NCBI GenBank assembly: GCA_017552965.1
Contig: JAFZNQ010000036.1
Coordinates: 1-35,753, forward strand
DNA: 35,753 bases
From: Abditibacteriota bacterium
Lineage (GTDB): Bacteria > Armatimonadota > UBA5829
Direction: 5' to 3'
In this document: in pieces, positions 1,803 through 32,359 of the stretch
Numbering within the stretch: position 1 is the stretch's first letter
Layout of the letters: the number at the start of each line of letters is the position of its first letter
The notes under the pieces: generated by a model
Databases searched by the model: none
What the model was told of the DNA's origin: nothing
Seen by the model: only the letters and a program-made list of their open reading frames with translations
Position numbers and translations under genes: made by a program

Positions 1803-1806
1803 TCCC

Positions 1807-2934
1807 ATGAAACTCACAGCCAACAGTATAGTCCTTATCAAGATAGGCACCAGCTCCATCACGGACGCCACGGGAGCCATAGACCCGGACGCCATCAAAA
1901 AGCTGGCCCATCAGCTGTATCTGCTGACCCGCCGGCATATACGCCCGGTGCTGGTGTCCTCCGGAGCCATCCGGGCGGGCATGGAAAAGCTGGGCATCAA
2001 AAAGAGGCCCAAGACCCTGCCCCGGCTCCAGGCCTGCGCGGCGGCGGGACAGTCGGCCCTGATGGAGATATACAACTTCATATTCCAGATGTACAAGCTG
2101 CCAGTGGCCCAGATACTGGTCACCCGGGACGACTTCCGCTCCAGGGACCGGTTTTTCAACGTGCGCAACACCATCCTGTCCCTGCTGTCCCTGGGCTGCA
2201 TACCCATTATCAACGAAAACGACACGGTGGCCACCGAGGAGATCAAGTTCGGGGAAAACGACACCCTGTCCGCCATTTCCGCGGCGGCGGTGGGCGCCCG
2301 GCTGTTGATCAATTTGTCGGACGTGTCCGGCCTCTACACTGCTGACCCCCGCACGGACCCTTCGGCGGCCCTCATACCGGTGGTGGAAAAGATCACCCCG
2401 GAGATCACCGCCCTGGCGGGCCTTACGGGAGGAGACGCGGGCTCTGGAGGCATGCGGTCCAAGCTGAAGGCGGCCCTCATAGCCGTGTCCTCGGGGGTCA
2501 GCATGGTCATAGCCGACGCCTCCGAGGAGGACGTGATCACCCGGGTGGTCTCCGGCAGCGTGCCGGGCACCTTGTTCCCGGCGGAGGGGAAGCCTCTCCC
2601 GCCCCGCAAGTGCTGGATGGCCTTTGCCGCCAAGACCGACGGCAGCCTCACCGTGAACGAAAACGCCCGGCAGAGGATACTCCACGGCACCAGCCTGCTG
2701 CCCGTGGGCATCACCGGAGTGGAGGGCTCCTTTGACAGCGGCGATCTGGTGGACATCAGAGACGAGGAGGGCCGGGTCTTTGCCAAGGGCACGGTGTATT
2801 ATTCCTCCGGGGAGCTGCGCCTCATCATGGGATGCCACACCGGCGAGATAAAGGCGGCCCTGGGCTACAAGGCCTATGACGAAGCGGTCCACCACAACAA
2901 CATGGTCCTGACGGGACCCGGATATCAGGAGTAA
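1807..2934 (+). CDS. proB: Glutamate 5-kinase with C-terminal PUA domain
   Basis: ProB phosphorylates L-glutamate to gamma-glutamyl phosphate, the first step of proline synthesis. The 375-residue protein shows the amino-acid-kinase fold: KIGTSS near residues 12-17, SSGA at 51-54, NENDTV at 136-141 and a glycine-rich GSGGMRSK stretch at about 212-219. A PUA domain follows, about residues 275-360. The ATG at 1807 is preferred over an upstream in-frame TTG at 1774 that lies inside obg, because the protein then begins right at the conserved kinase strand. There is no clear Shine-Dalgarno sequence; coupling to obg, whose stop lies 4 nt upstream, is likely. proA follows after 4 nt. Confidence 0.96.
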   Translation: MKLTANSIVLIKIGTSSITDATGAIDPDAIKKLAHQLYLLTRRHIRPVLVSSGAIRAGMEKLGIKKRPKTLPRLQACAAAGQSALMEIYNFIFQMYKLPVAQILVTRDDFRSRDRFFNVRNTILSLLSLGCIPIINENDTVATEEIKFGENDTLSAISAAAVGARLLINLSDVSGLYTADPRTDPSAALIPVVEKITPEITALAGLTGGDAGSGGMRSKLKAALIAVSSGVSMVIADASEEDVITRVVSGSVPGTLFPAEGKPLPPRKCWMAFAAKTDGSLTVNENARQRILHGTSLLPVGITGVEGSFDSGDLVDIRDEEGRVFAKGTVYYSSGELRLIMGCHTGEIKAALGYKAYDEAVHHNNMVLTGPGYQE

Positions 2935-2938
2935 CAGA

Positions 2939-4186: not shown

Positions 4187-4752
4187 AGCGTCTGGGCGTC
4201 ATGGGAGGCACCTTTGACCCCATCCACGTGGCCCATCTGGCCCTGGCGGAGGCCGCCAGAGAGCGCTTCCGTCTGGACAGGATACTCTTCGTGGTCAGCG
4301 CCAATCCGCCCCACAAGCCGGGCAGCCGCCTCACTCCGGCGGAGCAGCGTCTGGAGATGGTCAGGCTGGCCATAGCGGACAATCCCGCCTTTGAGGCCTG
4401 CGACCTGGAGCTCCGGAGGGACAAGCCCTCCTACACGGCGGACACCCTGCTGGAGCTGAAGGCTCTGTATCCCGGCGCCGAAAAATATCTGATAGTGGGC
4501 ATAGACGAGGCGCAGATACTCCACCGCTGGCACGACTATGAGACCGTGCTGCGGGAGTGCACCGTGGCTGCTGCCTGGCGCCCGGGCTATCCTCAGGAGG
4601 ACCCCCGGCTGCCGGCGGTCCTGTTTCACGCCCCCGAGATGAACATTTCCTCCAGCGGCATACGGACCCGGCTGGCGGAGGGCGGCTCGGTCAGGTATCT
4701 GGTCCCCGGCAGCGTATGCGAATATATCAAAGACAAAGGACTTTACGTATGA
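4174..4752 (+). CDS. nadD: Nicotinate-nucleotide adenylyltransferase
   Basis: NadD transfers AMP to nicotinate mononucleotide to give deamido-NAD, needed for NAD synthesis. This 192-residue protein has the nucleotidylyltransferase signature GGTFDPIHVAH at 11-21 (the family usually has GxxH, here VAH) and the ISSSGIR motif at 158-164 that closes the ATP site. Length is normal. The gene starts inside the end of proA (13 nt overlap) and its TGA overlaps the ATG of the LCP gene in an ATGA junction, so translation is probably coupled. The obg-nadD-LCP-rsfS order is a recurring arrangement in Gram-positive bacteria. Confidence 0.95.
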   Translation: MQGIKRLGVMGGTFDPIHVAHLALAEAARERFRLDRILFVVSANPPHKPGSRLTPAEQRLEMVRLAIADNPAFEACDLELRRDKPSYTADTLLELKALYPGAEKYLIVGIDEAQILHRWHDYETVLRECTVAAAWRPGYPQEDPRLPAVLFHAPEMNISSSGIRTRLAEGGSVRYLVPGSVCEYIKDKGLYV

Positions 4753-6128
4753 CAAACAGAAACGGCAATTTGCTCCTCACGGCTCTCGTAGTGCTCCTGG
4801 TAGCGGCGGCAGGCTCGCTGGCAGGCTTTTACGCGGCCAAATATTTCGGCAAATGGTTTTCGGCCTTCAAAGAGACCAACACTTCCCTGACGGACGTGCT
4901 CAAAAAGGACACCAATCCCTTCGGCGAGGCTGACTACGTCAGGATACTGGTGCTGGGCACCGACAAATCCAGGCTGGACAACCCCAAGTCCGACAAGCAG
5001 GAGGAGAAAAACGGGCTGGCCGACACCATCGTGGTGCTGTGCATCAATACCAAGTCCAAGGAGATACGGGCCATCAGCTTTCCCCGGGACACCAGGGTCA
5101 CCATCCCCGGCCACGGCACTCAGAAGCTCAACGCGGCCCACGTCATAGGCGGCCCCCAGCTGGTGAAGGAGGTCCTGGAGCAGAACTTTCTGGACGGCAT
5201 CACCATCGACTACTATATCAAGACGGACACCACCAGCTTCCGGAAGATGGTGGACCTGGTGGGAGGCGTATATATACTGGTGGAGGAGAGGATGAAATAC
5301 ACCGACCGGAGCCAGGGCCTCTACATAGACCTGCATCCCTCTCCCGAAAAGCAGCTGCTGAACGGCAAGGACGCCGAGGGCTACGTCAGATTCAGAAAGG
5401 ACAGATACGGCGACACCAGCTTCAAGGTGGAAAACGGCGAGGTGGTGAACGCAGGCCGGATAGTCCGGCAGCAAAAGTTCATCGTAGCCCTCTGCAACAG
5501 GATCATCAGCATGGACTCCAGGACCAAGAGGGCCGACTTCATCAAAACCTGCTATCAGAAAGGCTACATCGAGTCGGATCTGAAGCTCACCGACTGGGAC
5601 GCCCTGGCGGACTACGTGCTGGGCTTCAACCCGGATCAGATGCTCATAGACGTGCTGCCGGGCACCCCCACGGAAAAGGGCGTCAGCTACTGGATCCCGG
5701 ACCGTGAAAAGATCACCGAGATAGTGAACAGGGACATGCTCTTCGTGGGTGAAAATCCGAAGATAGCCGAGGCGGCAGCCAAAAAGGCGGAGGCTCAGGC
5801 GGCCGCTGCGGCGGCCAAAGAGGCGGCGCAGGCCCCCGCCGCGGACAAGAAGGACTACAGGATCACCGTGCTGAACGGCACCTCCGTCACGGGGCTGGCC
5901 AAGAACGCGGCGGCCAAACTGGCAGCCAAGGGCTATACCAACGTGACAGCGGCCAATGCTTCGAAAAACACCTATGAGGAGACGGAGCTGAAGGTGAAGA
6001 CCCGGGACGCCAATCTGACGGCTGTCCGGGGAGTCATCGGCTGCGGCAAAGAGACGGAGCCCTCCTCCGGTCAGGAGTCGGATCTGGTGATCATACTGGG
6101 CGGCGATTACGCAAAGCGAGGCAAATAA
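4749..6128 (+). CDS. LytR-CpsA-Psr (LCP) family protein with LytR_C domain
   Basis: LCP proteins move lipid-linked polymers onto peptidoglycan or related acceptors at the outer face of the membrane. This 459-residue protein has a short cytoplasmic N-terminus, one membrane segment at about 9-30, an LCP catalytic domain at about 65-255, and a LytR_C domain at about 368-455. Likely catalytic landmarks are Asp92 (ADTIVV), Arg113-Asp114 (FPRDT) and Arg239 (GRIVRQQ). An Ala/Lys-rich linker at about 340-367 joins the two domains. The ATG at 4749 overlaps the nadD stop. A longer in-frame reading into nadD was discarded as antigen-free readthrough without a start signal. The exact polymer handled is unknown. 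Confidence 0.93.
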   Translation: MTNRNGNLLLTALVVLLVAAAGSLAGFYAAKYFGKWFSAFKETNTSLTDVLKKDTNPFGEADYVRILVLGTDKSRLDNPKSDKQEEKNGLADTIVVLCINTKSKEIRAISFPRDTRVTIPGHGTQKLNAAHVIGGPQLVKEVLEQNFLDGITIDYYIKTDTTSFRKMVDLVGGVYILVEERMKYTDRSQGLYIDLHPSPEKQLLNGKDAEGYVRFRKDRYGDTSFKVENGEVVNAGRIVRQQKFIVALCNRIISMDSRTKRADFIKTCYQKGYIESDLKLTDWDALADYVLGFNPDQMLIDVLPGTPTEKGVSYWIPDREKITEIVNRDMLFVGENPKIAEAAAKKAEAQAAAAAAKEAAQAPAADKKDYRITVLNGTSVTGLAKNAAAKLAAKGYTNVTAANASKNTYEETELKVKTRDANLTAVRGVIGCGKETEPSSGQESDLVIILGGDYAKRGK

Positions 6129-6129
6129 A

Positions 6130-6483
6130 ACGGATACAGAGACAAAAGTACACATCATCACCGAGCTCCTTGAGAGCAAAAAGGCGGTGGACGTGCAGGT
6201 GCTGGACCTTAAGGACAGATCCATCATGTGCGACTATTTCGTCATATGCTCCGGCACCTCCAACATCCACATCAGGACCCTGTGCGACACCCTGGTCCTG
6301 GACGGCAGAAAAAAGGGCCTCAAAAAGAGGAACGTGGAGGGACGGTCCAACGCCAAATGGATACTGGTGGACTTCAAGGACGTCATCGTCCACATATTCG
6401 ATCAGGCAGAGAGAGAATACTACAAGCTGGAAGACTTGTGGCAAGGCCTGCCGGAGGAGACAGAAGATGGAAACAAAGAGTGA
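6130..6483 (+). CDS. rsfS: Ribosomal silencing factor RsfS, non-canonical start proposed
   Basis: RsfS binds ribosomal protein uL14 and blocks joining of the subunits in poor growth conditions. The conserved core from VQVLDL through DYFVICSG and WILVDF to YKLEDLW is clear. The first canonical in-frame start is GTG at 6187 (98 residues), but this would remove the N-terminal helix that homologues have. The reading frame continues upstream with fitting sequence, VHIITELLESKKAVD, and no ATG, GTG or TTG before a stop at 6088. ACG at 6130, 8 nt after GAGG (6118-6121) and just after the LCP stop, gives 117 residues, close to the family length. ATT at 6106 is a second option. Function is well supported; the start is not. 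Confidence 0.85.
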   Translation, partial: TDTETKVHIITELLESKKAVDVQVLDLKDRSIMCDYFVICSGTSNIHIRTLCDTLVLDGRKKGLKKRNVEGRSNAKWILVDFKDVIVHIFDQAEREYYKLEDLWQGLPEETEDGNKE

Positions 6484-7048
6484 CATCAGAAACAGACGGG
6501 CCTTCACCGAGCACCTGACCAGGGCCCGGATCCTGACGGAAAAGGGCGAATACGCCGAGGCCTCGGCAGAGGCGGCGGAAGCGCTGAAGCTCAGTCCGAA
6601 TGATCCGGACGCCAGAGAGCTCACCGCAGACATACTGGCCGCTCTGGGCAAAAGGCAGGCGGCCGCCGAGGAATACAAGAAGCTCTTCACCGAGGACAAG
6701 TCCAGAGAGAGCGCCGAGGAAAAATACGCCCTCCTGATACTCAACCAGTATGACGACGACCGCAAGGCCCGGGAAGAGGCGGAGCCCAAGGCATCCAAAA
6801 AGCCCTCCTCCTGGACACTGCTCCTCACGGCCATAGTGCCCGGCGTGGGCGCCATGCTGCAGGAAAAATACCTGAAGGGCGGCATACTCTTTGGCCTGTG
6901 GCTCATATTCTTCTGCCTGGCGGCAAAGGGCATGGGCCGGACCGGCTCCGATCCTATGAAGATCTTTACGAGCCTGCCCTCCCTGGCAGCCTGCGCCGTG
7001 TGGCTGTATTCCTTCATAGACACCCTGGCGGGCAGCATCAAAAAATAA
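6467..7048 (+). CDS. TPR-repeat protein with C-terminal membrane segments, function unknown
   Basis: This 193-residue protein is not assigned to a named family. Residues about 15-80 form helix pairs typical of tetratricopeptide repeats (LTEKGEYAEASAEAAEALKL and the following DPDARELTADILAALGK). After a charged linker at 95-110 come two hydrophobic segments, about 112-150 and 168-187. The phrase AIVPGVGAMLQEKYLKGGI resembles the small membrane modules found in TM2/DUF5683-like proteins. It therefore looks like a membrane-anchored scaffold with a cytoplasmic TPR part. It begins 17 nt before the end of rsfS and ends the operon. About 40 nt downstream the groES promoter starts. Confidence 0.7.
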   Translation: METKSDIRNRRAFTEHLTRARILTEKGEYAEASAEAAEALKLSPNDPDARELTADILAALGKRQAAAEEYKKLFTEDKSRESAEEKYALLILNQYDDDRKAREEAEPKASKKPSSWTLLLTAIVPGVGAMLQEKYLKGGILFGLWLIFFCLAAKGMGRTGSDPMKIFTSLPSLAACAVWLYSFIDTLAGSIKK

Positions 7049-7091
7049 TCCTTCCCGCCCCCTTCTTTTTTGTCCCGGCCCGGCCCGGGGC

Positions 7092-7121
7092 TTGCCCGGA
7101 GGGGGCGGGATGTGCTATAAT
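7092..7121 (+). promoter_or_regulatory. groESL promoter with extended -10
   Basis: A perfect TATAAT at 7116-7121 is preceded by TGTGC at 7111-7115, forming an extended -10 (TGNTATAAT). A TTGCCC box at 7092-7097 lies 18 nt upstream and may act as a -35. The predicted start near 7128 falls inside the CIRCE operator. Confidence 0.8.
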
Positions 7122-7125
7122 AGTA

Positions 7126-7152
7126 TTGGCACTCCACAGCCGAGAGTGCCAA
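7126..7152. promoter_or_regulatory. CIRCE operator (HrcA binding site)
   Basis: A perfect inverted repeat TTGGCACTC-N9-GAGTGCCAA lies between the groES promoter and the groES start. It matches the CIRCE consensus (TTAGCACTC-N9-GAGTGCTAA) with one symmetric change in each arm. CIRCE is bound by the HrcA repressor, so groESL is probably heat-induced by HrcA release. hrcA itself is not in the window. Confidence 0.95.
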
Positions 7153-7176
7153 AAACAGTATATTCGGAGGAATATT

Positions 7177-9074
<1,898 letters not shown>

Positions 9075-9083
9075 TCTCACAGC

Positions 9084-9120
9084 AAAAAACGGGCGCCCCG
9101 AGGGGCGCCTTTCTTCATTT
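9084..9120. terminator. Bidirectional intrinsic terminator between groEL and the 511-residue gene
   Basis: The palindrome GGCGCCC (9092-9098) / GGGCGCC (9103-9109) forms a very GC-rich hairpin. On the plus strand it is followed by TTTCTTCATTT. On the minus strand the complement of the A-run at 9084-9089 gives TTTTTT. The two transcription units converge here, so one hairpin can end both. Confidence 0.88.
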
Positions 9121-9176
9121 CACTATCCGGCAGGCCGGCAGGGACAGAGGGTCCGTTTTTTGACGCGACATCTCTC

Positions 9177-21641: not shown

Positions 21642-23120
21642 TCAGCGGACCCGGACTATTCTGAAGGCCTCCGTCTCAAAGGCGGTATCCTCCAGGTCCT
21701 CCCGGGCGTCCCGGGGCAGCACCAGTATATCGCAGCGGGGCTGCGCCCCCTCCAGGACCTTCATATATTCCCCTGTCCTGCGGGAATAGTCGGGAGTCTC
21801 GCTCCAGTGACCGTAATACACTCTCCTGCCCGTATAGCCGGGAATAAAGAGGGCCGTCTGGGGCGGAGCCATGATCACGTCCCCGGGGCCGGCATGGGCG
21901 GCTATCCAGTCCATGACTTTTTCCTCATCCCGGGACATCCAGGGGCTGAAGCGGGCCGCGGTGGTGCCCGCGGACAGCTCCGTCATATCCCTGTGAATAT
22001 TCGTCAGGTTGCCGGCGGCAAGGACCAGCACGGCCAGGGCGCACAGGGCTCTGCGGAGCCCTCCGGTCCGGGAGAGGCATTGAGCAAGAGCCGGCCCGGC
22101 CAGCAGGGACACGGGTATCATGTAGCCCATGATGAACTTGCGCTGCTGGCTGAAGGGGATGTATAAGATAGCCAGTCCCGCCAGGAGCCAGAACACCAAC
22201 ACGGGCAGCTGCCGCAGGGAGAGCCGGCCCTTTTTCACCATGATCAGGGCGGCGCAGGCCAGCAAGAGCGGCAGGCCGAAGCCCGCCAGCACGTACCATA
22301 TTTCCGGAGTGGAGATCACCGTGTCCACCCTGCTCCTGTATATGGGGTCACGGAGATATATGGCGCAGTTGACCGCCACGGACACGGCTCCCGCCGCGCC
22401 GGCGGCTATGTGCAGCAGAAGCCGGCGCAGGTCCCGGGTCCTGCCGTATTCCCACAGGGCGGCAAAGGCCCACAGCAGGGCCACTATCACCGTGTCGTAG
22501 GTGTGGACGTTGCCCAGCAAAAAGAGCCAGAGCCCCGCCTGCCACAGCCGGCCCCGGAGCAGGCTCCCGAGACAGAGCAGCATGAGGATCAGGGCCGCCG
22601 TAAACAGAGGATTCAGATAGGCGCTCATAAAGGTGACGGCTTCGGGCTGCCAGGCGTCCACGGCCCCGGGCAGGAAAAAGCCGAAGCCTCCCCCAAAGAG
22701 AAAGATGAGGGTGGCCGTCAGGCGGCTGCGTCCTCCGGAGAGGAAGAGCCCCGAAAAGGAGTAGAACACCCAGGGCAGGGCCAGGGCCTGCAGGAGCCGG
22801 GCCAAGTGGAGCACCGCCGTCTCCGGATGCCGGAAGAGACCCCCCGCCAGCCGGGCGGCAAAGCCCAGGACCAGTATATACACGTTGAACTGGGCCCCTC
22901 CCTGCTTGTCCTGAAAGAGATTTTCGGTCACTATGCTGCCCAGAGCCGTCTGCTTTACCCAGGACATATATACAGCCATGTCGTCTATGTTGCGGGTGTA
23001 GCCGATAAAGCTGCCGTCCCCGGGACACACGGTAAGGCCCCACAGATAGGGCACGGAGCCCAGCAGGACGAAGAGAGCCGCAGCCAGAGGCAGATATTTG
23101 TTCTTGTTCGCAGCCTTCAT
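21642..23120 (-). CDS. Polytopic membrane protein, possibly GT-C glycosyltransferase-like
   Basis: This 492-residue protein has a charged N-terminus and about 9-11 hydrophobic segments, then a soluble C-terminal part of about 120 residues. An early acidic loop segment NIDDMAVYMSW lies after the first membrane helix. That position and the overall shape resemble GT-C glycosyltransferases (PMT/ArnT-like), but the match is weak and no donor motif is certain. The ATG at 23120 has GGGGAAGG 7 nt upstream; a TTG at 23135 is less likely. It starts 1 nt after the PP2C stop, so it belongs to the kinase operon and may be a membrane partner or target of that system. Confidence 0.65.
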   Translation of the reverse strand: MKAANKNKYLPLAAALFVLLGSVPYLWGLTVCPGDGSFIGYTRNIDDMAVYMSWVKQTALGSIVTENLFQDKQGGAQFNVYILVLGFAARLAGGLFRHPETAVLHLARLLQALALPWVFYSFSGLFLSGGRSRLTATLIFLFGGGFGFFLPGAVDAWQPEAVTFMSAYLNPLFTAALILMLLCLGSLLRGRLWQAGLWLFLLGNVHTYDTVIVALLWAFAALWEYGRTRDLRRLLLHIAAGAAGAVSVAVNCAIYLRDPIYRSRVDTVISTPEIWYVLAGFGLPLLLACAALIMVKKGRLSLRQLPVLVFWLLAGLAILYIPFSQQRKFIMGYMIPVSLLAGPALAQCLSRTGGLRRALCALAVLVLAAGNLTNIHRDMTELSAGTTAARFSPWMSRDEEKVMDWIAAHAGPGDVIMAPPQTALFIPGYTGRRVYYGHWSETPDYSRRTGEYMKVLEGAQPRCDILVLPRDAREDLEDTAFETEAFRIVRVR

Positions 23121-23121
23121 C

Positions 23122-23856
23122 TCAGCCTTCCCCAAAGGTCACCAGCGCCGCCGACATATCGTCCCGGGAGCCGGCCTCCAGGGCTGCCTCCGTCAGGGCG
23201 GCCAGCCGGTCCGCCGGAGCAGTGTTGTCCGAGAGGAGCTGCTCCATCCGGTCCTGGGTCAGGTAGTCGTGGATGCCGTCGGTGGTGAACAGCAGAGGCG
23301 CCCCGGGGCCCTTGGGCAGGGGCTCCGACGTCACCAGATGCTCCAGCATGCCTTCGGAGCCGGCGCCCAGACAGCAGTATATCTCGCTCTTCGACACCCC
23401 CTCCGTGTCCATGCCGGCGCTCAGGAGCTGCTGATACACGGTGTGGTCCGCGGTGAGGGCGTCCAGATAAGAGCCGCCGTTCACCTTCCAGAGCCGGGTG
23501 TTGCCGCAGTGGGCCATCAGGCACCGGTCCCCGGTGAAATAGCAGCCCGTAAAGGCCGCCGCCATGGTCCCCAGCCCCAGGTTTCTGCCGTAGGCTATGA
23601 GCCGGGCGTTCAGGCTTTGCATGACCTCCCGCAGCTCCTCGGGGGACCCGGGCTTTTCTTCCATCAGGCGGGACACAGTAAAGGCCGCCGCCGGGCTGCC
23701 TCCGGGATTGCCTCCCACTCCGTCGCAGACCCCTATCCACAGGGGAAAATCCGCCGTGAGCTCTCCTGCCCCGGATATCACGGCGCAGGGGCCCGCCAGG
23801 ACCGCGTCCTCGCACAGGGCCTTGGCGCCCCGGCGCACTATGTAGCTGATCTTCAT
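23122..23856 (-). CDS. PP2C-type Ser/Thr protein phosphatase
   Basis: This 244-residue protein is a compact PP2C (PrpC/Stp-like) metal-dependent phosphatase. Metal ligands are visible as Asp17 (CEDAV), Asp45-Gly46 (VCDGVGG), Asp193 (TTDGIHD) and Asp232 (SRDDMSA). GLGTMAAAF at 94-102 and HCGNTRLW at 116-123 are the other family motifs, the latter replacing HxGDSR. It should remove phosphates placed by the kinase encoded upstream at 28351-30042. The ATG overlaps the stop of the AAA+ gene (ATGA). No membrane segment is present, so it is cytoplasmic. Confidence 0.92.
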   Translation of the reverse strand: MKISYIVRRGAKALCEDAVLAGPCAVISGAGELTADFPLWIGVCDGVGGNPGGSPAAAFTVSRLMEEKPGSPEELREVMQSLNARLIAYGRNLGLGTMAAAFTGCYFTGDRCLMAHCGNTRLWKVNGGSYLDALTADHTVYQQLLSAGMDTEGVSKSEIYCCLGAGSEGMLEHLVTSEPLPKGPGAPLLFTTDGIHDYLTQDRMEQLLSDNTAPADRLAALTEAALEAGSRDDMSAALVTFGEG

Positions 23857-25778
23857 TGCGCTTCTTCCTCTGTCTCTTTCTCCGTCAGAGGGGTGACGGA
23901 GCAGGTCATGGTCCTCAGGGGATCCTCCTCGTCTATCCGCAGCACCTCGATCCGGGCGTTTCTGAACACCTGCGCGTCAAACATATATCTGGCCAGAGGA
24001 TTGACGAACATGCTCTCCACTATGTTGCCTATGCCTCTGCCTCCGTTTTCCAGATTGGCGAGAGCGTTGCGGCGCAGAGCCTCGTAGGCCTCCTCGGAGA
24101 CGGTCAGCTCTATGTCCTTGTCCTCCCTCAGGTTGTCCGCTATCTTGCGGAGCTTGGCGTCCAGTATCCTGGTGGCCGCCTCCTCCCTGATGAAGTCAAA
24201 GACCACTATGTTCTCCCCTATCCTGTTGAGTATCTCGGGGCGGCCCAGCTGCAGCTTGAAATAGGTCTCTATGCCTTCGCGCACCTGCTGCCGGACCTCC
24301 TCGTAGTCCATCTCGGGAAATACCACCTGCTCCCTGTGGCCCGTCTCGTTCACGGCGTATATGCCCAGGTTGCTGGTGAATATGATCACCGTCTCGGAAA
24401 AATACACCGTGTTGCCCTGGCCGTCGGTCATCCTGCCGTCCTCCAGTATCTGCAGGAACTTGTCCAGGATAGAGGGATGGGCCTTCTCTATCTCGTCAAA
24501 GAGCAGGATGGAAAAGGGGTTGTTTTTCACGGCGTTGGTCAGCTGGCCTCCCGCCTCGTAGCCTACGTAGCCGGGAGGGGCTCCCAGCAGCTTTTGGTCG
24601 CTGTGGGGCTGGCCGTATTCGCTCATGTCAAAGCGGATGCAGGCGCTCTCGTCGCCGAAAAGCTTTTCCGCCAGGGTCTTGGCGGTCTCCGTCTTGCCGG
24701 TACCGGTGGGACCGGCAAAAAACAGCACTCCCTTGGGCTTGCCGTGAGACGAGGACTGGATGTCCGTCAGCCCGGTCACCGCCCTTTTGATCACGTCAAG
24801 TGTCTTGCTGAGGGCGTAGTCCTGCCCCTTGACCCTCTTTTCAAAGTCGGCCTTGGCGTCGGCCCAGTCCCGGTAGTCTATGGCCTCCCACTTGTTTTCG
24901 GAGATGCCGAACTTGTAGAGGTCTATCACCTTGCACAGGTCCTTCATCTCCAGGCCTTCGTTGCGGCACAGGTCCCCCAGGCCGTAGAGCTCCGTGTTGG
25001 TGAAGCCCTCCGTGAGCCCGGTGAAGCGGTCCCTCAGCTTGTCCAGGTCCGCCTCCCTGTCCCTGTAGAGCTCCATGCCCTCTCTGTACTTGTCCGGGGA
25101 AAAGAATTCTTCAAAGTTGACGCCGCTGACGTAGGCCCTCCTCTCCTCCTTGGTGGGAGTGCCCACGTGGATAGTGCTGACCGAGGGGTTGTCCAGATAG
25201 AACCAGGCGGGTATGTCGTTGACCTTGTTCACCAGATACACGGTGAGGTTTTTCAGTCTCCTCTTGTCGTTTTCCCGGTCTATCATGGGCTCCCGGCTGT
25301 CCAGGGAAGCCCTCAGCAGTCTGGTGTAGGCGTCTATCTCCTGCTGCTGCATGGCCGGCCCCGGCTCCCCCGTATAGTGGCTGGCCAGGTCCAGTATGGC
25401 GGCGCAGGGAGCCTTTTCCTGAGTCATGGCCCTCTCTATGGCGAAGGCGCAGCTCCTGTCGCCGGCTCTCTGGGGGATAAAGGGAAACGGCAGGGCGTTG
25501 GGGTCCCCCTTCTCTCCTATGAGGTCGGCGAACTTTTGCACGTATTCGCCGGAGACTGCGTCCGTGTCGTTGAAAAAGCCCCTGATACTGTCGTAAAAGA
25601 TGATGTTGGGATAGCCCAGACTGCGGAAATAATAGTGGAGATATTTCCTGAGCCTGTTTATCCCCGCCCCGGGATAGGTGAACATATCCAGCACGTTGCC
25701 TTCCATGATGATCACGGGCTTGATCTTGCGGAATATATCCAGCTCCCGATGCCACTTGGGCACTGCGGTCTTTGTCAT
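23853..25778 (-). CDS. Clp/ClpB-like AAA+ ATPase with an inactive first AAA domain
   Basis: The 641-residue protein has a C-terminal ClpB-D2-like engine. Walker A GPTGTGKT is at 356-363, pore loop GYVGY at 403-407, Walker B LLFDE at 425-429, sensor 1 TSN at 468-470, arginine-finger segment RPEILNRI at 513-520 and sensor 2 GGRGIGN at 579-585. Residues about 15-230 look like a second AAA domain without a P-loop: a Walker-B-like AILDL at 127-131 and a sensor-1/second-region-like stretch NKVNDIP...PTKEERRAYV. It lacks the Clp-N domain and the ClpB middle coiled coil, and has no ClpP-binding loop I can identify. It is probably an unfoldase or remodeller. It begins 3 nt after the radical SAM gene. 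Confidence 0.88.
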   Translation of the reverse strand: MTKTAVPKWHRELDIFRKIKPVIIMEGNVLDMFTYPGAGINRLRKYLHYYFRSLGYPNIIFYDSIRGFFNDTDAVSGEYVQKFADLIGEKGDPNALPFPFIPQRAGDRSCAFAIERAMTQEKAPCAAILDLASHYTGEPGPAMQQQEIDAYTRLLRASLDSREPMIDRENDKRRLKNLTVYLVNKVNDIPAWFYLDNPSVSTIHVGTPTKEERRAYVSGVNFEEFFSPDKYREGMELYRDREADLDKLRDRFTGLTEGFTNTELYGLGDLCRNEGLEMKDLCKVIDLYKFGISENKWEAIDYRDWADAKADFEKRVKGQDYALSKTLDVIKRAVTGLTDIQSSSHGKPKGVLFFAGPTGTGKTETAKTLAEKLFGDESACIRFDMSEYGQPHSDQKLLGAPPGYVGYEAGGQLTNAVKNNPFSILLFDEIEKAHPSILDKFLQILEDGRMTDGQGNTVYFSETVIIFTSNLGIYAVNETGHREQVVFPEMDYEEVRQQVREGIETYFKLQLGRPEILNRIGENIVVFDFIREEAATRILDAKLRKIADNLREDKDIELTVSEEAYEALRRNALANLENGGRGIGNIVESMFVNPLARYMFDAQVFRNARIEVLRIDEEDPLRTMTCSVTPLTEKETEEEAQ

Positions 25779-25781
25779 ACG

Positions 25782-26396
25782 TTATATCCTTGTGTCTTCC
25801 TTCGCTTGTTTTTCCGTGAGCCTTCTCAGGAGCTCCTCCCTGTAGCCGGGCTTGTGGATGCCCGCGGATATGATGCCGTTTTCGGTGGCAAAGTTCTGCA
25901 CCTGCAGGGGCTTGCCCCGCAGATATTCCTCGTAGAGAGGCCTGTATTCCTCTCTCAGATAGCGGATGGTCTGATTGTCCGAGCCCTTCAGCAGGGAGCC
26001 CCGGTTCAGCTCCTCCACGTATTCGCCGTCTATGAGCACGGCTATCTGCTCCAGCAGCTCCGGCCGGGACGCGGCCAGCTCCTCGTATTTATATCCGGTA
26101 TAAACCAGTATGTCGCCGGTGATGCCGTTCAGCTCCGGCAGCAGCTCAGCCAGGGCCTCCGGCTGATAAAAGGGATCCCCTCCCGACAGGGTAAAGCCGT
26201 CTATGGGCCCGGCGGCCTGCACCCGGCTGACGAGCTCCATGACCCCGGACAGAGTGACCTGTCTGCTGTCATCCTGCTCCCACAGCTCGGGATTGCTGCA
26301 GCCCCGGCACCGGCGGGGGCACCCCTGAAACCATATGCCCAGTCTGTCTCCCGGTCCCAGTACCTTCACGGGATACAATAGTCGCGCCACATACAT
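25782..26396 (-). CDS. NrdG-like radical SAM / 4Fe-4S activase-type protein
   Basis: This 204-residue protein resembles the activating proteins of glycyl-radical enzymes. It has the cluster motif Cys26-X3-Cys30-X2-Cys33 in WFQGCPRRCRGCSNPELW, the SAM-binding SGGDPF at 71-76, the ILVYTGYKYEEL strand at 96-107 and LKGSDNQTI at 136-144. In NrdG the partner is the anaerobic ribonucleotide reductase NrdD, but no glycyl-radical enzyme is encoded in this window. The ATG at 26394-26396 shares one base with the FHA gene stop (TGATG), so the two are coupled. A longer in-frame reading up to 26828 lies inside the FHA gene and is not real. Its reaction here is unknown. Confidence 0.87.
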   Translation of the reverse strand: MYVARLLYPVKVLGPGDRLGIWFQGCPRRCRGCSNPELWEQDDSRQVTLSGVMELVSRVQAAGPIDGFTLSGGDPFYQPEALAELLPELNGITGDILVYTGYKYEELAASRPELLEQIAVLIDGEYVEELNRGSLLKGSDNQTIRYLREEYRPLYEEYLRGKPLQVQNFATENGIISAGIHKPGYREELLRRLTEKQAKEDTRI

Positions 26397-27013
26397 CACT
26401 TGATCTCCACCGTCACCACATAGACCCCCTGGGCGTCCGGAGCCTCCGGATCCCCGGCCAGAGCCAGCCGCGCCCCGTTTTCCGCCGGGCGCTCCTCGCA
26501 GCCCAGTCTCTGTCCGTTGAGCCAGGTGCCGTTGGTGGAGCCCAGATCCCTGACGCTCAGTCCCTGAGGCCCGGGTATCAGCTCGCAGTGCCTGCGGCTG
26601 ACGTAGGGCCGGTCCTTCAGGACCTCCCTGAGGGCGCCCTCTCTGCCCAGCACCGTGTTTTCGGTGACGGGGAAACGGGAGCCGTCGGGCAGCAGCAGGG
26701 CGCAGGCCTTTGCCCCGGGCGCCCCGGCGGACGATTCCGACGGCCGGGTCATGGGGATATCCATCAGCTCCCCGCCGCACCGGCGGCACTTCCGCAGGCT
26801 CACCGGGTTGCTTTCGCCGCAGGGGCACACCCTGACGGGCATGGGCGACGGCGGCGTCTCGGTCTCCTCCGGAGACTGCAGGGTCTCCCGGCGGCTCTCT
26901 ATCTCATCGTCGGTGGCGCTCACCAGAGTCAGGTCCCGCCCGCATTCCGGGCAGCGGCGCTTGGCGGGATCTGCCTTACAGCCGCAGTCGGGGCATAGCT
27001 TGTACCGGTCCAT
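26396..27013 (-). CDS. FHA-domain protein with two zinc ribbons
   Basis: The 205-residue protein has zinc ribbon 1 (Cys7, Cys10, Cys21, Cys24), a Thr/Ser/Pro-rich linker, zinc ribbon 2 (Cys63, Cys65, Cys76, Cys79) and a C-terminal FHA domain at about 103-203. FHA hallmarks are Gly123-Arg124, Ser139-Arg-Arg-His142 and STNGTWLNG at 159-167, so phosphothreonine binding should be intact. FHA proteins next to kinases usually read the kinase product. Candidate ligands are the Thr motifs at the N-terminus of the kinase in the same operon. It starts immediately after the stop of the coiled-coil gene. Confidence 0.92.
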   Translation of the reverse strand: MDRYKLCPDCGCKADPAKRRCPECGRDLTLVSATDDEIESRRETLQSPEETETPPSPMPVRVCPCGESNPVSLRKCRRCGGELMDIPMTRPSESSAGAPGAKACALLLPDGSRFPVTENTVLGREGALREVLKDRPYVSRRHCELIPGPQGLSVRDLGSTNGTWLNGQRLGCEERPAENGARLALAGDPEAPDAQGVYVVTVEIK

Positions 27014-28354
27014 TTAGTCTGCCGTCCTGCTCTTTTTTTTCGCGCGGACCCTTTTGGTCTGCTGCTTTCTGACGAGCACCGCGTTCTCCGTGTGCTCGTA
27101 GTCCTCCAGATTGATGATGGTGGCGTAGGCCGGCTGGGGAGGCAGAGAGCTGAAGGAGGAGACGTCTATACCCTTTTCCGCCAGCTTGCGGGCTATGGTC
27201 TCGTAGTCTCCGCAGAAGGACTCCATGTCCTCGGTCAGCTGCCGCTGCTCCTCGGGAGCCGGCTCCCTGTCCCGGGTGTCCAGACCACCCAGCTCCATGG
27301 TGATGGCGCCCTCGGAATTGTAGGTCACGTCCACCGCGGTGCCCCCCTCCAGCTGATAGAGGCGGCCGCTGAAACGGGCGCCGGTCTGTCCCACGGTCTC
27401 TCTGGAGCCTATGCGGGTGTAGCCCATTTCCTCGAACACCTCGTCCACGGAACGGGCTATATATTCCTTTTCCTGCTGCCTGACAAGAGCGGCCCTCAGG
27501 GCCTCGTTGGCCACCTTCAGGTCCTCCATGCCCTTCTCCGTGCAGGGGTAGAGCCGGCGCTCCGCGCCGGTCATGTCCGACAGCCAGGCGTTTTCCACCG
27601 TGAGATCGGCGTATTCCTCCCGGATGCGGGCGTATTCGTCGGCCTCCTTTTCCAGAGGCTTCAGGGTCAGGCTGCAGAGGTCCCGCAAAAAGCTCCTGTC
27701 CGTGACGCCGTCGGCGGCCTTACGGGCCGCTGCCACCCGCTCCTCCAGCTCCTCAGGCAGCTCAGCCAGAGACAGCTTTTCCAGCAGGCTCCACACCCGG
27801 TCGTATTCCGCTGTGTCCTGAGCCTCTTCGGGAGCGGCGGGATCTTCCTCCCCCAGGTCCACAATGCCGCCAGAGATACGGCCGGCCACCTTCTCGGTGC
27901 ACTGAGCCTTCAGCTTTTCGAGAGAAGCAGAGGTCCTTTCGGCCTTTTCCGCCAGGGCAGCCAGCCGGCTGTTCACCTGCTGTATGTCGCTGACGGTGCT
28001 GTGCCGGGGCAGGTCCCGGAGGGTCTCCGCTTCCTGCATGGCTTTCACCAGACCCTGTTCCAGCGCGGCCAGACGGCCCGAGTATCCCTCACCCTCAAAC
28101 AGTGTCTTCAGGGCCTTCATGCGGGCCTGACAATCCCGGCCTCTCGCCAGCGCCTTTTCTGCCAGGACCCCCTTCTGGCTCTCGGCAGTGTCCAGCATCT
28201 GCTGCAGCCTGAGGAGGGCTGCCCTCTGGGTGGCCAGGACCCGCCGGTCCTTTTCGTTGCGTATCTCATCGGCTATCTGGGCCGCGGTCTTGCCGGCCCA
28301 GGCTGCCAGCAGCACGGGCATGAGGGCGGGTATGATGATGATCTCTGCGCTCAC
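27014..28354 (-). CDS. Coiled-coil protein with hydrophobic N-terminus, function unknown
   Basis: This 446-residue protein matches no family I know. The GTG start at 28354 overlaps the kinase stop in a GTGA junction and has AGGAG 9 nt upstream. It begins with a strongly hydrophobic stretch, EIIIIPALMPVLLAAWAG, that may insert into the membrane. Residues about 25-330 are mainly charged heptad-rich helices (coiled coils). A more globular part follows at about 330-415, with GYTRIGSRETVG and TAVDVTYNSEGAITMELGG. The C-terminus is very basic (KQQTKRVRAKKKSR). It could be a scaffold or kinase substrate at the membrane. Confidence 0.75.
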   Translation of the reverse strand: MSAEIIIIPALMPVLLAAWAGKTAAQIADEIRNEKDRRVLATQRAALLRLQQMLDTAESQKGVLAEKALARGRDCQARMKALKTLFEGEGYSGRLAALEQGLVKAMQEAETLRDLPRHSTVSDIQQVNSRLAALAEKAERTSASLEKLKAQCTEKVAGRISGGIVDLGEEDPAAPEEAQDTAEYDRVWSLLEKLSLAELPEELEERVAAARKAADGVTDRSFLRDLCSLTLKPLEKEADEYARIREEYADLTVENAWLSDMTGAERRLYPCTEKGMEDLKVANEALRAALVRQQEKEYIARSVDEVFEEMGYTRIGSRETVGQTGARFSGRLYQLEGGTAVDVTYNSEGAITMELGGLDTRDREPAPEEQRQLTEDMESFCGDYETIARKLAEKGIDVSSFSSLPPQPAYATIINLEDYEHTENAVLVRKQQTKRVRAKKKSRTAD

Positions 28355-30042
28355 TTTTGCACTCTCCTTTTCCAGGCGTCCAGCTCCCTGCTCTTGCCCA
28401 TGGCCACCAGCCATGCCTCAAAGGAGGGCTCCAGCCGGCTGTTGCTGTCTATGAGGGACAGGCACACCTCGAAGAAATCGTCATAGGACTTCCTGAAGGC
28501 CTTCTCCAGACAGTCCACCACCTCGGCCGGGTCCTTCACGGTCCTGCCGTCCTTGAGCCTGAATTCTTTCATTCCGGACAGCGAATAGCCCAGGACCCAC
28601 AGGGAATAGGTCCTGTTGCGGGAGCCCTGCTCCGAGCCTGTGTAGAGCTTCTCTATGTCACGGGCCAGGTCCGCCTTTTCCCGGGAGCCGCCGGTGCAGT
28701 CCAGATAGGAGGACAGCACTCCGGCCCTGAGTATGTCGTCGAAAAAGGCGGGGGTCTCTCCGGCAGCCAGGCAGCTCATGAGCTGCAGGCCCAGATCCCG
28801 CAGGCTGTCGTATCTGGAGCCCTTCCAGTAGAGGGCCTTCAGGTCCGGGTCCAGCCTGTAGAGGGTGTCGAAAAAGCCGGCGTCCGCATCGGCAGTGCTC
28901 TCCGTGGCGTCGTCGCACACGGTCTGGAGGTCCGGCCTTCCCGAATCGCCGAAATGCCTGGACAAGTAGCCTCTGTAGAGCTGCTTTTTGCCCTCCTCCC
29001 AGTTGGCAGCCATGGCCTGGACCAGGGAATGCATATCCCCGTAGGTCTTGCCGGCGAAGGGATAGGGCTTCCAGCCCGGGGTCCGCGCGTCGGCTTCGCC
29101 GCTGCCGGGAAGGGGCTGGTCTATACCCTTGAGCCATTTGGCCACCTGCTCGTAGCCCCAGCGGCAATTGGGATTCTGCTTCTCGTGCCGGTGGGAGATA
29201 TCCTGATAGAGCAGGGCTCCTATCAGGTCCTTCAGCTCCTGCTCCATATTATCCGGGAAGGGCACAGTGGACATGAGCCTGTATTTGGGTATCTCCGCCT
29301 CGGGTATATCCTTCCAGGGCACCTGGCCGCAATAGAGCTCATAGAGACAGATGCCCAGAGAATAATAGTCCGACAGGTCCGTATAGACGTCGCTCAGGGC
29401 TTCGAGGGAGGCATACACGGTGGTGAGGCCGGTGCTGGTGGCCACGGAGGTGGCTCCGTCCCGGGCCACGGTGCTGACTCCGAAGTCTATGATGACCACT
29501 CTGGACATGTCGTCGGACAGCATCATGTTGGCGGGCTTCAGGTCCTTGTGAAAGACCCCCGCGCTGTGCATGGCCTTCAGGCCCTCGTTGACCGAGGGGA
29601 TCACCAGCCGCTTCAGCTCCTTCAGGCCGAAGCGCTTGCCGGCCAGACTGCCGTTTTTGTAGTATGGAAGTATGACCCAGGGATAGCCGTCCAGATAGCC
29701 GGAGGCCAGATATCTGGCCACAAAGGGCGAGTCTATCTTCAGTATCTGCTGCACCACTTCGGGCTTGACGGCGGCCCGGCGCCGGAAGATCTTGGCCACA
29801 CAGGTCCTCTGACCGTCGGTGCATTTGTAGAGGTCGGCTTCGCCGGAGGCGGTCTCCATAGTCTCTGTGACTGTAAAGCCGCCCAGCACAGCGCCCAGAG
29901 CGCTGCCGGGGCCGGCGTTGCCGCGGACTTTCGTGGCGGGTTCGTCGTCGTTGTGGGATACACGGGTGGCCGGAGCGCCATTTATCTGCGTGACCTGAGT
30001 CTCGCCGCGCACCCGGGTACGGGGGGTTTCGTTTTCTGCCAT
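28351..30042 (-). CDS. Ser/Thr protein kinase with TxV-rich N-terminus and unknown C-terminal domain
   Basis: The 563-residue protein has a Hanks-type kinase domain at about 55-310. The catalytic Lys is Lys84 (VAKIF), the catalytic loop is HKDLKPAN at 165-172, with Lys in place of the usual Arg of HRD, and DFG is at 186-188. ASLEAL stands at the APE position. The glycine loop is degenerate. Residues 5-41 contain repeated Thr-Arg/Lys/Gln-Val motifs: TRVRG, TQVTQ, ATRVS and ATKVRG, plausible autophosphorylation and FHA-docking sites. The C-terminal 250 residues form an unassigned helical domain. No membrane segment is visible. AAAGGAGG precedes the ATG. It is the first gene of the operon. Confidence 0.9.
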   Translation of the reverse strand: MAENETPRTRVRGETQVTQINGAPATRVSHNDDEPATKVRGNAGPGSALGAVLGGFTVTETMETASGEADLYKCTDGQRTCVAKIFRRRAAVKPEVVQQILKIDSPFVARYLASGYLDGYPWVILPYYKNGSLAGKRFGLKELKRLVIPSVNEGLKAMHSAGVFHKDLKPANMMLSDDMSRVVIIDFGVSTVARDGATSVATSTGLTTVYASLEALSDVYTDLSDYYSLGICLYELYCGQVPWKDIPEAEIPKYRLMSTVPFPDNMEQELKDLIGALLYQDISHRHEKQNPNCRWGYEQVAKWLKGIDQPLPGSGEADARTPGWKPYPFAGKTYGDMHSLVQAMAANWEEGKKQLYRGYLSRHFGDSGRPDLQTVCDDATESTADADAGFFDTLYRLDPDLKALYWKGSRYDSLRDLGLQLMSCLAAGETPAFFDDILRAGVLSSYLDCTGGSREKADLARDIEKLYTGSEQGSRNRTYSLWVLGYSLSGMKEFRLKDGRTVKDPAEVVDCLEKAFRKSYDDFFEVCLSLIDSNSRLEPSFEAWLVAMGKSRELDAWKRRVQK

Positions 30043-30068
30043 ATTGGCCTCCTTTAGATAGTTTGCCG

Positions 30069-30085
30069 GCGGCCCGACGGGCCGC
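30069..30085 (-). promoter_or_regulatory. Leader hairpin of the kinase operon
   Basis: GCGGCCC (30079-30085, minus sense) and GGGCCGC (30069-30075) form a perfect 7-bp GC stem with a 3-nt loop. It lies between the predicted transcription start (about 30099) and the kinase ribosome site. There is no T-run, so it is not a terminator; it may protect the mRNA or bind a regulator. Confidence 0.5.
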
Positions 30086-30105
30086 TTCGATTAGTATATA
30101 TACCT

Positions 30106-30134
30106 ATTATATCACAATTGCCGGCCTTATGCAA
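30106..30134 (-). promoter_or_regulatory. Promoter of the kinase-FHA-AAA operon
   Basis: On the minus strand TTGCAT (30129-30134) is followed after 17 nt by TATAAT (30106-30111), preceded by TGTGA (30116-30112). It sits in the 97-nt gap between the DUF6273-like gene and the kinase gene, so the kinase operon can be transcribed on its own. Confidence 0.82.
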
Positions 30135-30139
30135 AGGCT

Positions 30140-31366
30140 TCAGAGCTGTATCATCATCACGGGCCGCACCCCTATGTTGGTGGAGGCCACGTCCTGGCCT
30201 GTGAGCACGCACTCTCCCTTGACAAAGGTGGCCAGGGAGGTGGCCTCCGTGGAAGCGATGCGCCCCTCAAAGGGCGCCACGAACACGGCTGATTCTCTGC
30301 CCAGTCCCGGGGTCCTCAGCCACCAGCCCGCGTGGCCCGAAGGCACGGCTATGCCGTGGGACTCGGCAAAACGGGTGGGATAGCACAGCCGGTCATTGTT
30401 GCGGGGCATATACCGCATGGCTTCTTCGTAGGACAGGATGAACACCCTGTCCACAGTGTCCGCCCCGCCGGGAATGAGATAGGTGGGATTTTGGCGGGCC
30501 TCCACTTTGGTATTGAGGATCAGCCTTTTTTCGGCGGAGGAGAAGACCTCGTTGTAAAAGGGTCCACCCAGCCAGGCCCTCAGGGCGCAGTGTTCCCAAT
30601 CAGTGGGGGCGGCCTGGTCGTGATAGGAGGTGCACTCCAGCACAAAACGGCTGATGAGGAGGGCCCGGGCGCCGGACACGCTCAGCACTATCCATTCCAC
30701 CGGGGACTTTTTGGCCGCCGATTCGATGTAATAGGAGCCCAGGAGCACGGTCATGCCCGCCTTCAGTACCCTGGACCTGATGCCTTCCAGCAGCTCGGGG
30801 CTGTCCTTGTAGTCGCCCAGAGCAGAGAGGAGCCTGTAGGCCTCGGGATATCGCTTGGAGTTGGCCGCCACGATGGCGTCGTTGTACATGGCGTTCAGAC
30901 GGGCCTCCTCCTTGCCCAGGGCCCGGGACAGCTCCATGAATTCGTCGCTGATGACGTGGGGGACCTGCTCTATCTTGTCCATATCCCGGGAAGCGATGAT
31001 CAGGTCCAGAGGCCTGTCGGCGTTTTCGATGCGGCGGACTATCCCCGAGGCCAGGTCAGACTGCTTTTTCATCTCCTGGGCCATGATCCTGAGAGACTGC
31101 TTTTTCTCCGGGGCGGCGGCTGCCAGCAGGACCAGCAGCTCATAGGAGCTGCCGGTAACGGCCTGATACTTTTGCAGATCTCCCGGCACCTTCGGTCTCT
31201 GATAATTGACCGATTCCTCCGGGCGGAGATCCACTGCCCCCCTGAGGGCCTTGGTGTCCGCGGGGATATGGGGCCTGGTCTGCCGCTGCCGCCCGGAAGG
31301 CGTCTGCAGGGATTGCAGGGAACAGAGCCCCAGGACCAGAAAGAAGATGAATATAGCCACCCACAT
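30140..31366 (-). CDS. Membrane-anchored protein with DUF6273-like C-terminal domain
   Basis: The 408-residue protein starts with one hydrophobic helix (residues 3-20) that probably anchors it with the rest outside or inside the cell; topology is unclear. Residues about 60-205 are helical. The C-terminal half, about 215-408, resembles DUF6273, a domain seen in secreted or surface proteins of Firmicutes. Matches to the pattern as I recall it are VEWIVLSVSGARALLIS, HCALRAWLGGPFYNEVFSSAEK, DRVFILSYEEAMRYMP, GWWLRTPG and GVRPVMMI. Its function is unknown. It starts 9 nt after the metallophosphoesterase stop and lies just upstream of the kinase operon promoter. Confidence 0.72.
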   Translation of the reverse strand: MWVAIFIFFLVLGLCSLQSLQTPSGRQRQTRPHIPADTKALRGAVDLRPEESVNYQRPKVPGDLQKYQAVTGSSYELLVLLAAAAPEKKQSLRIMAQEMKKQSDLASGIVRRIENADRPLDLIIASRDMDKIEQVPHVISDEFMELSRALGKEEARLNAMYNDAIVAANSKRYPEAYRLLSALGDYKDSPELLEGIRSRVLKAGMTVLLGSYYIESAAKKSPVEWIVLSVSGARALLISRFVLECTSYHDQAAPTDWEHCALRAWLGGPFYNEVFSSAEKRLILNTKVEARQNPTYLIPGGADTVDRVFILSYEEAMRYMPRNNDRLCYPTRFAESHGIAVPSGHAGWWLRTPGLGRESAVFVAPFEGRIASTEATSLATFVKGECVLTGQDVASTNIGVRPVMMIQL

Positions 31367-31375
31367 GGTCAGCTG

Positions 31376-32359
31376 TCAGAACCTGTATTCTCTGTCTATG
31401 CCGCAGCCTATGCGCCGGACCCGGATGATCCTGCGGCGGGGGTCCACCGTGAAGACGTCCAGCACCTGTTCGTTGATGGTGCCGTCGGGACGCAGGGGAT
31501 ACATGTGATCCCAGTAGGACGCCTGAGCTCCGCGGCCCGCGTCGCAGGTGGTGGATATGACGGGATAGCCCTTCTTGCTGTAGATGGCGTGATCCATGTG
31601 CACGTGCCCCGACACCACGGCGGCTATGCGGGCCCGGGCCTTGTCGTACACGCTGTCCAGGATGCCTAAGGTCACGTTGGCGGGACGGGTGAGCCAGGGA
31701 CCGCCCTGATCCCCCTTGTGCACGGGGCCGTAGTCAAAGAGAATGTGCTGAAACACCACTATGTTCCAGCCTTTGGGAGTCTGCAGCACCGTCTTTTTGA
31801 GCCAGTCCTCCTGCTCCTTTTCCAGGCCCTCTCCGGCCTCGTCGCCCGTGTCCAGCAGGATGTAGCGCATGCGGGCCTTTTTGTGATCTATGTAGTAGTA
31901 GAGCTTGTCCTCGCCCTGATAGGCCCCGGGAGACACCCGGCGCACTATTTTGGCGAACTCGGAGGCGGGCAGGCGCTCCCCGCCCTGATAGTTGGTGTCG
32001 TGATTGCCCCTCAGCACCGCCGGCTGAGTAAAGCCGTAGAGGGATATGACGTCGCCGATGGTCTCCGCCGCCTCTTTGGCGGTGGTGTTGGCGTTCATGT
32101 AGTCGCCGCCCAGCACCACCAGCTCTATGCCGGTGGCCTTCATCACGTATTCGGCCACGGCGGGGCTGAACAGAGGATTGTCGGGCCTGTGACAGTCGGT
32201 GATGAACAAAAAGGAATCGCCTGCCGGCGCCGACTTCATGTCCTGCCTGACCGCCTCCACCCGCCCGGGCAGATAGTCCGTCCAGTAGTCCGGCAGTCCG
32301 GCGCACAAGGCGGCTCCGCAGACCGCCAGCAACAATAAGGCCATACACAACTTGCGCAT
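31376..32359 (-). CDS. Secreted calcineurin-like metallophosphoesterase
   Basis: The 327-residue protein has a signal peptide (about residues 1-20, ending near CAALCAG-like small residues) and a calcineurin-like fold. Metal ligands are visible in order: Asp55 and His57 (ITDCHRP), Asp86 (GGDY), Asn119-His120 (RGNHD), His205 (VFQH) and His252/His254 (SGHVHMDH). The substrate cannot be told; nucleotides, phospholipid head groups or wall teichoic-type esters are all possible for secreted members. AGGAG lies 8 nt before the ATG. The TGTG-type promoter at 32417-32427 drives it away from the oxidoreductase gene. Confidence 0.88.
   Translation of the reverse strand: MRKLCMALLLLAVCGAALCAGLPDYWTDYLPGRVEAVRQDMKSAPAGDSFLFITDCHRPDNPLFSPAVAEYVMKATGIELVVLGGDYMNANTTAKEAAETIGDVISLYGFTQPAVLRGNHDTNYQGGERLPASEFAKIVRRVSPGAYQGEDKLYYYIDHKKARMRYILLDTGDEAGEGLEKEQEDWLKKTVLQTPKGWNIVVFQHILFDYGPVHKGDQGGPWLTRPANVTLGILDSVYDKARARIAAVVSGHVHMDHAIYSKKGYPVISTTCDAGRGAQASYWDHMYPLRPDGTINEQVLDVFTVDPRRRIIRVRRIGCGIDREYRF

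Follow-up and report, generated by a model that had tools for sequence, protein, structure and literature searches.

The 35,753-nucleotide stretch analysed here (the window) comes from a rumen bacterium of the Abditibacteriota with a genome of 2.78 Mb, in which it lies on contig C36; a relative of the same genus comes from the yak rumen. Seven consecutive open reading frames run on the minus strand from 30042 to 21642. All were confirmed, and they overlap or abut exactly as an earlier, sequence-only reading had described. The first six form a tight operon encoding a Ser/Thr kinase (563 aa, 28351-30042), a coiled-coil (CC) protein (446 aa, 27014-28354), a zinc-ribbon and FHA phosphothreonine-reader protein (205 aa, 26396-27013), an NrdG-like radical SAM protein (204 aa, 25782-26396), a Clp-type AAA+ protein (641 aa, 23853-25778) and a PP2C-type phosphatase (244 aa, 23122-23856). 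The kinase and CC genes share GTGA at 28354-28351, the CC and FHA genes are in TAA/ATG contact (27014/27013), and the FHA and radical SAM genes meet at TGATG (26396). A 3-nt gap precedes the AAA+ gene at 25778, which is joined to the PP2C gene by ATGA at 23856-23853. The PP2C gene and the seventh gene are 1 nt apart, provided that the latter starts with the ATG at 23120. The operon had also been said to lie behind one promoter, and a single promoter-like site, TTTGCA-18-TATAAT (30106-30135, minus strand), is present upstream, as a consensus match only; a consensus scan of the region returned four such sites against 2.2 expected.

The seventh gene (21642-23120, minus strand) is co-directional with the operon and encodes a membrane protein without a Pfam family. 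It adjoins the system only in one same-genus genome (G170), and a homologue occurs in a genome with no detected copy of the system (G081). For these reasons we judge the membrane protein to be a local neighbour outside the system. The proposed seven-member operon is therefore reduced to six genes that are conserved as a set, with the membrane gene as a bystander.

Proteins of the operon

The assignment of the kinase, FHA, radical SAM, AAA+ and PP2C families was borne out by Pfam and NCBIfam. The kinase (Pfam Pkinase, 1e-26) has intact catalytic motifs, HKDLKPAN and DFG. The HxD motif is present in all 11 kinases sampled, and the DFG pattern in the kinases of type I loci, the type to which the window belongs. 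The N-terminal tail of ~42 residues contains repeated T-x-V/I sites (TRV, TQVTQIN, TRV, TKV). In type I kinases (window positions 29917-30042 and the homologues L052, L062-L067 and L069), the motif T-x-[VIL]-N occurs 23 times in 450 tail residues, compared with twice in 5082 residues of the kinase bodies. These repeats are predicted autophosphorylation sites and a likely ligand for the FHA domain. They form arrays of up to five per kinase tail, where their density is ~100-fold that elsewhere in the proteins. The FHA protein (Pfam FHA, 6e-13) also has a weak Pfam match to a double zinc ribbon and retains the motifs LGR, VSRRH and STNGT; the GR motif and most of the SxxH motifs are present in the FHA proteins sampled. 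The phosphatase is recognised by NCBIfam (Stp1, 7e-21) and has a constant place in type I loci. Its Pfam match is weak (PP2C_2, 1.4e-3, under the cut-off), and its motifs are DGVGG and TDG, with DGxGG in those sampled.

The AAA+ protein (Pfam AAA_2, 4e-49, and ClpB_D2-small) had been called a two-domain protein. Two AAA modules are present, one a dead and the other a live ATPase module: a pseudo-ATPase D1 (residues ~1-300) and an active-type, ClpB-like D2 (~310-617) with a GYVG pore loop. The predicted structure (mean pLDDT 72) matched ClpC/ClpB over both AAA modules in a structure search. The Walker A motif of D1 is absent from 28 of 28 AAA+ proteins, all of which retain the Walker A motif, pore loop, sensors and arginine finger of D2; the Walker B pattern was found in 27. 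The IG[FL] ClpP-docking loop, sought between sensor 1 and the arginine finger in these AAA+ proteins only, is absent from all 28. From this pattern of motifs we infer that the protein would be a D2-driven threading unfoldase acting without ClpP. It resembles ClpB, ClpC and ClpA in its two modules, as found by structure search, and in the D2 motifs and pore loop. It differs from them in having lost the D1 Walker A motif, in lacking the ClpP loop and in its NCBIfam scores, which are far below every Clp equivalog cut-off. There was no match to MoxR (AAA_3), the best Pfam family being AAA_2.

The grouping of kinase, FHA reader and PP2C eraser with a Clp-type AAA+ protein is reminiscent of the threonine-phosphorylation pathway of the type VI secretion system (T6SS), PpkA-Fha-PppA (PMC5995506, PMC3953482), and of ClpV. 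The operon could be a leftover or relative of this pathway with a ClpV-like ATPase, as the same four activities (kinase, FHA, PP2C, Clp AAA+) are found in both. However, the ClpV1 model TIGR03345 gave 231.6 bits, far below its cut-off of 884.95, and ClpB scored higher. The best match to the contractile sheath (TssB/VipA) in the genome reached 22.4 bits, short of the required 24, in a search that gave a positive E. coli control, and none of the neighbourhoods read contains contractile genes. The window system also differs from the T6SS in having no sheath or baseplate genes and an inactive D1, and in adding a radical SAM protein and a CC core protein. A T6SS remnant was rejected on the ClpV and sheath scores, and we regard any such descent as very improbable.

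The radical SAM protein (Pfam Fer4_12/radical SAM, 4e-30) shares with the NrdG activase the CX3CX2C cluster, the GGDP and GSxNQ landmarks and a core of the same size. CX3CX2C, GG[ED]P and GSxNQ are present in 14 of 14 radical SAM sequences, with invariant cysteines. It differs from NrdG in scoring 102.5 bits with the NrdG model, below the cut-off of 126.1, and in having no adjoining NrdD. Since the true NrdG of this genome is located beside NrdD on contig C15, the operon protein is a paralogue. A housekeeping NrdG was ruled out by the sub-cut-off score and the separate NrdG-NrdD pair. NrdG-type radical SAM activases load radicals onto large glycyl-radical enzymes; no glycyl-radical protein is encoded in the operon.

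The CC protein has homologues in type I loci and no Pfam family. Its predicted structure (pLDDT 78) consists of long helices followed by an alpha-4beta-alpha C-terminal domain. A fold search gave nothing with E <= 0.001, and a profile search of the PDB returned generic coils only. Many CC proteins start with MSG at the N-terminus.

Conservation of the six genes in two phyla

A plasmid-collection search with the AAA+ protein found the arrangement in Aristaeella lactis: kinase, hypothetical protein, FHA, 4Fe-4S protein, AAA+ and PP2C, with an AAA+ protein that is 62% identical. A genome scan with the N-terminal domain of the AAA+ protein gave ten Bacillota loci; the query for the genome-contig scan was built from three close sequences and is biased towards close type I relatives. 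Five of the loci are complete, with kinase, CC, FHA, radical SAM, AAA+ and PP2C genes in this order (L062, L063, L065, L066 and L071); two of them are near-identical, and four have an extra small gene before PP2C. The six-gene order is thus common to Lachnospiraceae and Aristaeella. Of the remaining loci, L064 contains the final five genes of the set. In Clostridium drakei the order is CC-FHA-radical SAM-AAA+-PP2C, and the kinase is encoded a few genes upstream of these. The AAA+ and radical SAM genes are swapped in L069, and L068 and L070 are partial. In L070 (1492-2502), from Merdivicinus, the AAA+ frame ends early, and in L068 (219-2749), from Ruminococcus UBA4383, the CC gene is shortened and the FHA and radical SAM genes are missing; both may be assembly artefacts. 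Cultured hosts that carry the kinase version include Cuneatibacter caecimuris, C. drakei and A. lactis.

The neighbourhood is therefore not unique to the window's genome. The sequence-only reading had named, as support for a system, the recurrence of four or more of its seven families together in unrelated genomes, and six recur in this way, in A. lactis and the five complete Bacillota loci. This recurrence of order and content in unrelated genomes places the operon far beyond chance: the six genes form a conserved system, shared between two phyla by bacteria of the gut and the rumen. The flanks of type I loci are mostly unrelated and include tRNA synthetases, RecQ, a sugar kinase and a GmrSD restriction protein. 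The GmrSD-type protein is encoded ~300 bp upstream of the kinase in a Lachnospiraceae genome (L071, 283-2556), a place where the near-twin L066 differs.

A tree built from 22 AAA+ proteins places the window protein inside the Bacillota clade as the sister of Aristaeella (supports 99/95 and 100/97). This nesting points to transfer across phyla, with Bacillota as the simplest source. The system is present in two of the three genomes of the genus, and the third carrier among the 15 genomes of the family has a type II relative. Within type I, the distance matrices of the AAA+, radical SAM and CC proteins correlate at 0.82-0.96. Genes that move together should correlate in this way; the common ancestry of the hosts accounts for part of the correlation.

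A core of three proteins with varying partners

The combination of CC, AAA+ and radical SAM genes also occurs in other families of the window's phylum, in a cyanobacterium and on proteobacterial plasmids. Its partners vary, being kinase/FHA/PP2C/vWA in some loci and an SF1 helicase with a PIN domain or an endonuclease in others. HMMs made from the system proteins were run on the collected loci. Type II, from six genomes of the phylum (L043-L048), has the order radical SAM, CC, AAA+, vWA, (FHA), PP2C, kinase; no radical SAM gene was seen in two of these loci, L045 and L046, both of which run up to a contig edge. A Geminocystis plasmid (L056) has type II-like CC and AAA+ genes with a radical SAM gene 8.7 kb away, and repeated paralogous hypothetical genes lie between the AAA+ and radical SAM genes (601-9165). 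Type III (L040-L042) reads CC, AAA+, radical SAM, FHA, PP2C, kinase. Type IV, on plasmids of Moellerella, Acinetobacter, Photobacterium, Polaromonas and Leisingera, reads SF1 helicase, PIN, CC, AAA+, radical SAM, and the helicase that accompanies PIN on these plasmids is MkoA-like. Type V (Rhizobium, Caballeronia) has AAA+ and radical SAM followed by kinase/DUF4011 helicase/MTES_1575 nuclease, with a DUF4011/MTES_1575 helicase-nuclease in Rhizobium; no CC protein was recognised in type V loci.

The C-terminal domain of the CC protein is common across types in profile-profile comparisons (types I-II, E = 1e-6; II-IV, 1.6e-8; I-III, 2.5e-4). A direct hhalign comparison of types I and IV fails (E = 0.31), and these two are linked indirectly, via type II. 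The CC protein itself belongs to the core and recurs in different phyla. Radical SAM and AAA+ genes are adjacent, usually overlapping or touching. By hand count, in a set that includes some close relatives, 28 of 32 loci have a radical SAM gene no more than about three genes away from the AAA+ gene. The exceptions are the two type II loci at contig edges, the Geminocystis plasmid and L068, which has no radical SAM gene between CC and AAA+. Among 201 genomes of the phylum, seven contain the type II CC protein. Six of these coincide with the six genomes that have a type II AAA+ protein (Fisher, 8e-11); the seventh match is at the edge of a contig, in a genome of 73% completeness.

If the operon were a chance neighbourhood of unrelated genes with an ordinary NrdG, neither gene order across phyla nor strict co-occurrence would be expected, nor a separate true NrdG beside NrdD, and we regard this explanation as refuted. 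Together, the loci show a conserved, horizontally moving system. Its core consists of a CC adaptor, an NrdG-like radical SAM protein and a Clp-type AAA+ protein in which D1 is dead and D2 live. Second, divergent relatives of the AAA+ protein are found in two genomes, G097 and G068 (L049, 1629-3485, and L050, 8863-10767), where the conserved neighbours are different ones and the distance to a radical SAM gene is ~5-6 kb; they may belong to a sister system.

No full-length AAA+ protein was found in 50,697 phage records or in a scan of viral contigs, and a phage-borne operon was rejected because neither source contained copies. A PHROGs search gave generic Clp and NrdG families only. A search for the type IV cassette in E. 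coli genomes returned, among the matches listed, only ClpB-like matches covering at most 9% of the query.

Known systems and possible role

No model in Pfam, NCBIfam or PADLOC describes the gene set. PADLOC 2.0 gave no hit for the radical SAM, CC, FHA and PP2C proteins, and only generic domain hits for the AAA+ protein and the kinase. A literature search, which covered open-access papers with preprints outside its scope, found no description of the gene combination. The earlier statement that this is not a described system agrees with these searches; given their scope, and the use of the PADLOC release of 2023, novelty here means 'not found', which is short of 'proved absent'. A mention of radical SAM in the Dnd literature is unrelated to this system.

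Besides the T6SS pathway, the nearest known systems are the NTP-dependent conflict systems described in 2020 by Kaur et al. (PMC7159879), which include a MoxR-vWA ternary system and an FtsH variant with a radical SAM effector, and which count kinases and FHA domains among their effectors. As in those systems, an AAA+ chaperone is accompanied by accessory effectors, and a vWA protein, absent from the window operon, is present in the type II relatives. In contrast, the AAA+ protein is of the Clp/AAA_2 type rather than MoxR or FtsH, and radical SAM is a near-constant partner rather than an occasional effector. There is also a link to the SF1 helicase/nuclease defence genes Mokosh, Hhe and the PADLOC candidate PDC-S37: in Aristaeella and in loci of types IV and V, their helicases or relatives of these adjoin the core; however, the core genes match none of these models, and the window operon has no helicase.

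The sequence-only reading had proposed that the operon may encode a phosphorylation-gated machine for protein modification or unfolding. This idea remains a proposal, now with better support, since the catalytic motifs are intact, the pore loop is present and the kinase tail carries threonine repeats. A trigger would cause the kinase to phosphorylate the threonine repeats in its own N-terminal tail. The FHA protein would then bind the phosphorylated tail and dock the CC adaptor and the AAA+ ring, and the D2 motor would pull on and unfold a client protein without ClpP. Unfolding might give the radical SAM enzyme access, so that a radical is installed or the exposed chain modified, before PP2C resets the switch.

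Of the roles considered, defence or conflict with mobile elements is the most likely. The core occurs on plasmids, its presence is patchy (3 of 15 genomes of the family), and SF1 helicases, PIN domains or an endonuclease can take the place of its other partners. The helicase neighbouring the system in Aristaeella matches the PADLOC candidate PDC-S37 with 1308 bits, which also favours this role. Against it stand the ordinary metabolic genes that surround most type I loci, including the window, with no adjoining helicase or nuclease. The same flanks suit a proteostasis or stress module, a phospho-regulated disaggregase that would rescue or repair damaged proteins, whose radical SAM enzyme repairs or modifies proteins and which is not directed at phages or plasmids; a ClpB-like D2 with a pore loop and without a ClpP loop would fit this. 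Yet the very patchy distribution, the transfer between phyla, the plasmids and the nuclease and helicase partners are unlike a housekeeping chaperone, and we consider such a module unlikely. Alternatively, the AAA+ protein and its adaptor could open one particular partner for the NrdG-like activase to load with a radical or another modification, with the kinase circuit setting the time, in a metabolic or assembly role with no conflict involved. The retention of all NrdG landmarks and the tight coupling of the radical SAM and AAA+ genes speak for a maturation machine of this kind, but the operons contain no constant client gene and the flanking enzymes vary between loci, which makes it rather improbable. 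We infer the order defence or conflict, stress response, dedicated protein maturation.

In the window's type, the core is wired to the kinase, FHA and PP2C proteins. Our preferred reading, which we hold tentatively, is that the system carries out phospho-gated unfolding and radical modification in defence or conflict. The lack of phage and viral-contig copies and of a glycyl-radical client in the operon counts against this as the best explanation, as does the indirectness of the link between the CC proteins of types I and IV. With somewhat greater reserve, we can envisage a new and widespread class of bacterial machine that serves conflict or stress. Its Clp-type unfoldase, the first ring of which is dead, would pass proteins on to the NrdG-like radical SAM enzyme, and a dedicated phosphothreonine code, made up of the repeat tail on the kinase, the FHA reader and the PP2C eraser, would gate the process. 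Clp motors refold or degrade proteins, and to our knowledge no earlier system couples ATP-driven protein unfolding to radical modification of a protein. If the reading is correct, the Clp-type motor is paired across several phyla with a radical SAM enzyme of the activase type for new chemistry on unfolded protein; in the window's type, a phosphorylation circuit that is both local and complete would control the pair. The versions on plasmids, with helicase and PIN partners, make the defence role directly testable in laboratory strains, and the operon would be a compact model for the writing, reading and erasing of threonine phosphorylation in bacteria.

Directly upstream of the operon and in the same direction are genes for a DUF6273 protein (30140-31366, minus strand; Pfam DUF6273, 7e-22) and a calcineurin-like phosphoesterase, together spanning 30140-32359. 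A DUF6273 gene directly follows PP2C in Aristaeella and is found in none of the other type I loci; the C. drakei cluster contains two DUF5050 proteins. The DUF6273, calcineurin-like phosphoesterase and DUF5050 proteins are possible sensors or accessories of the system.
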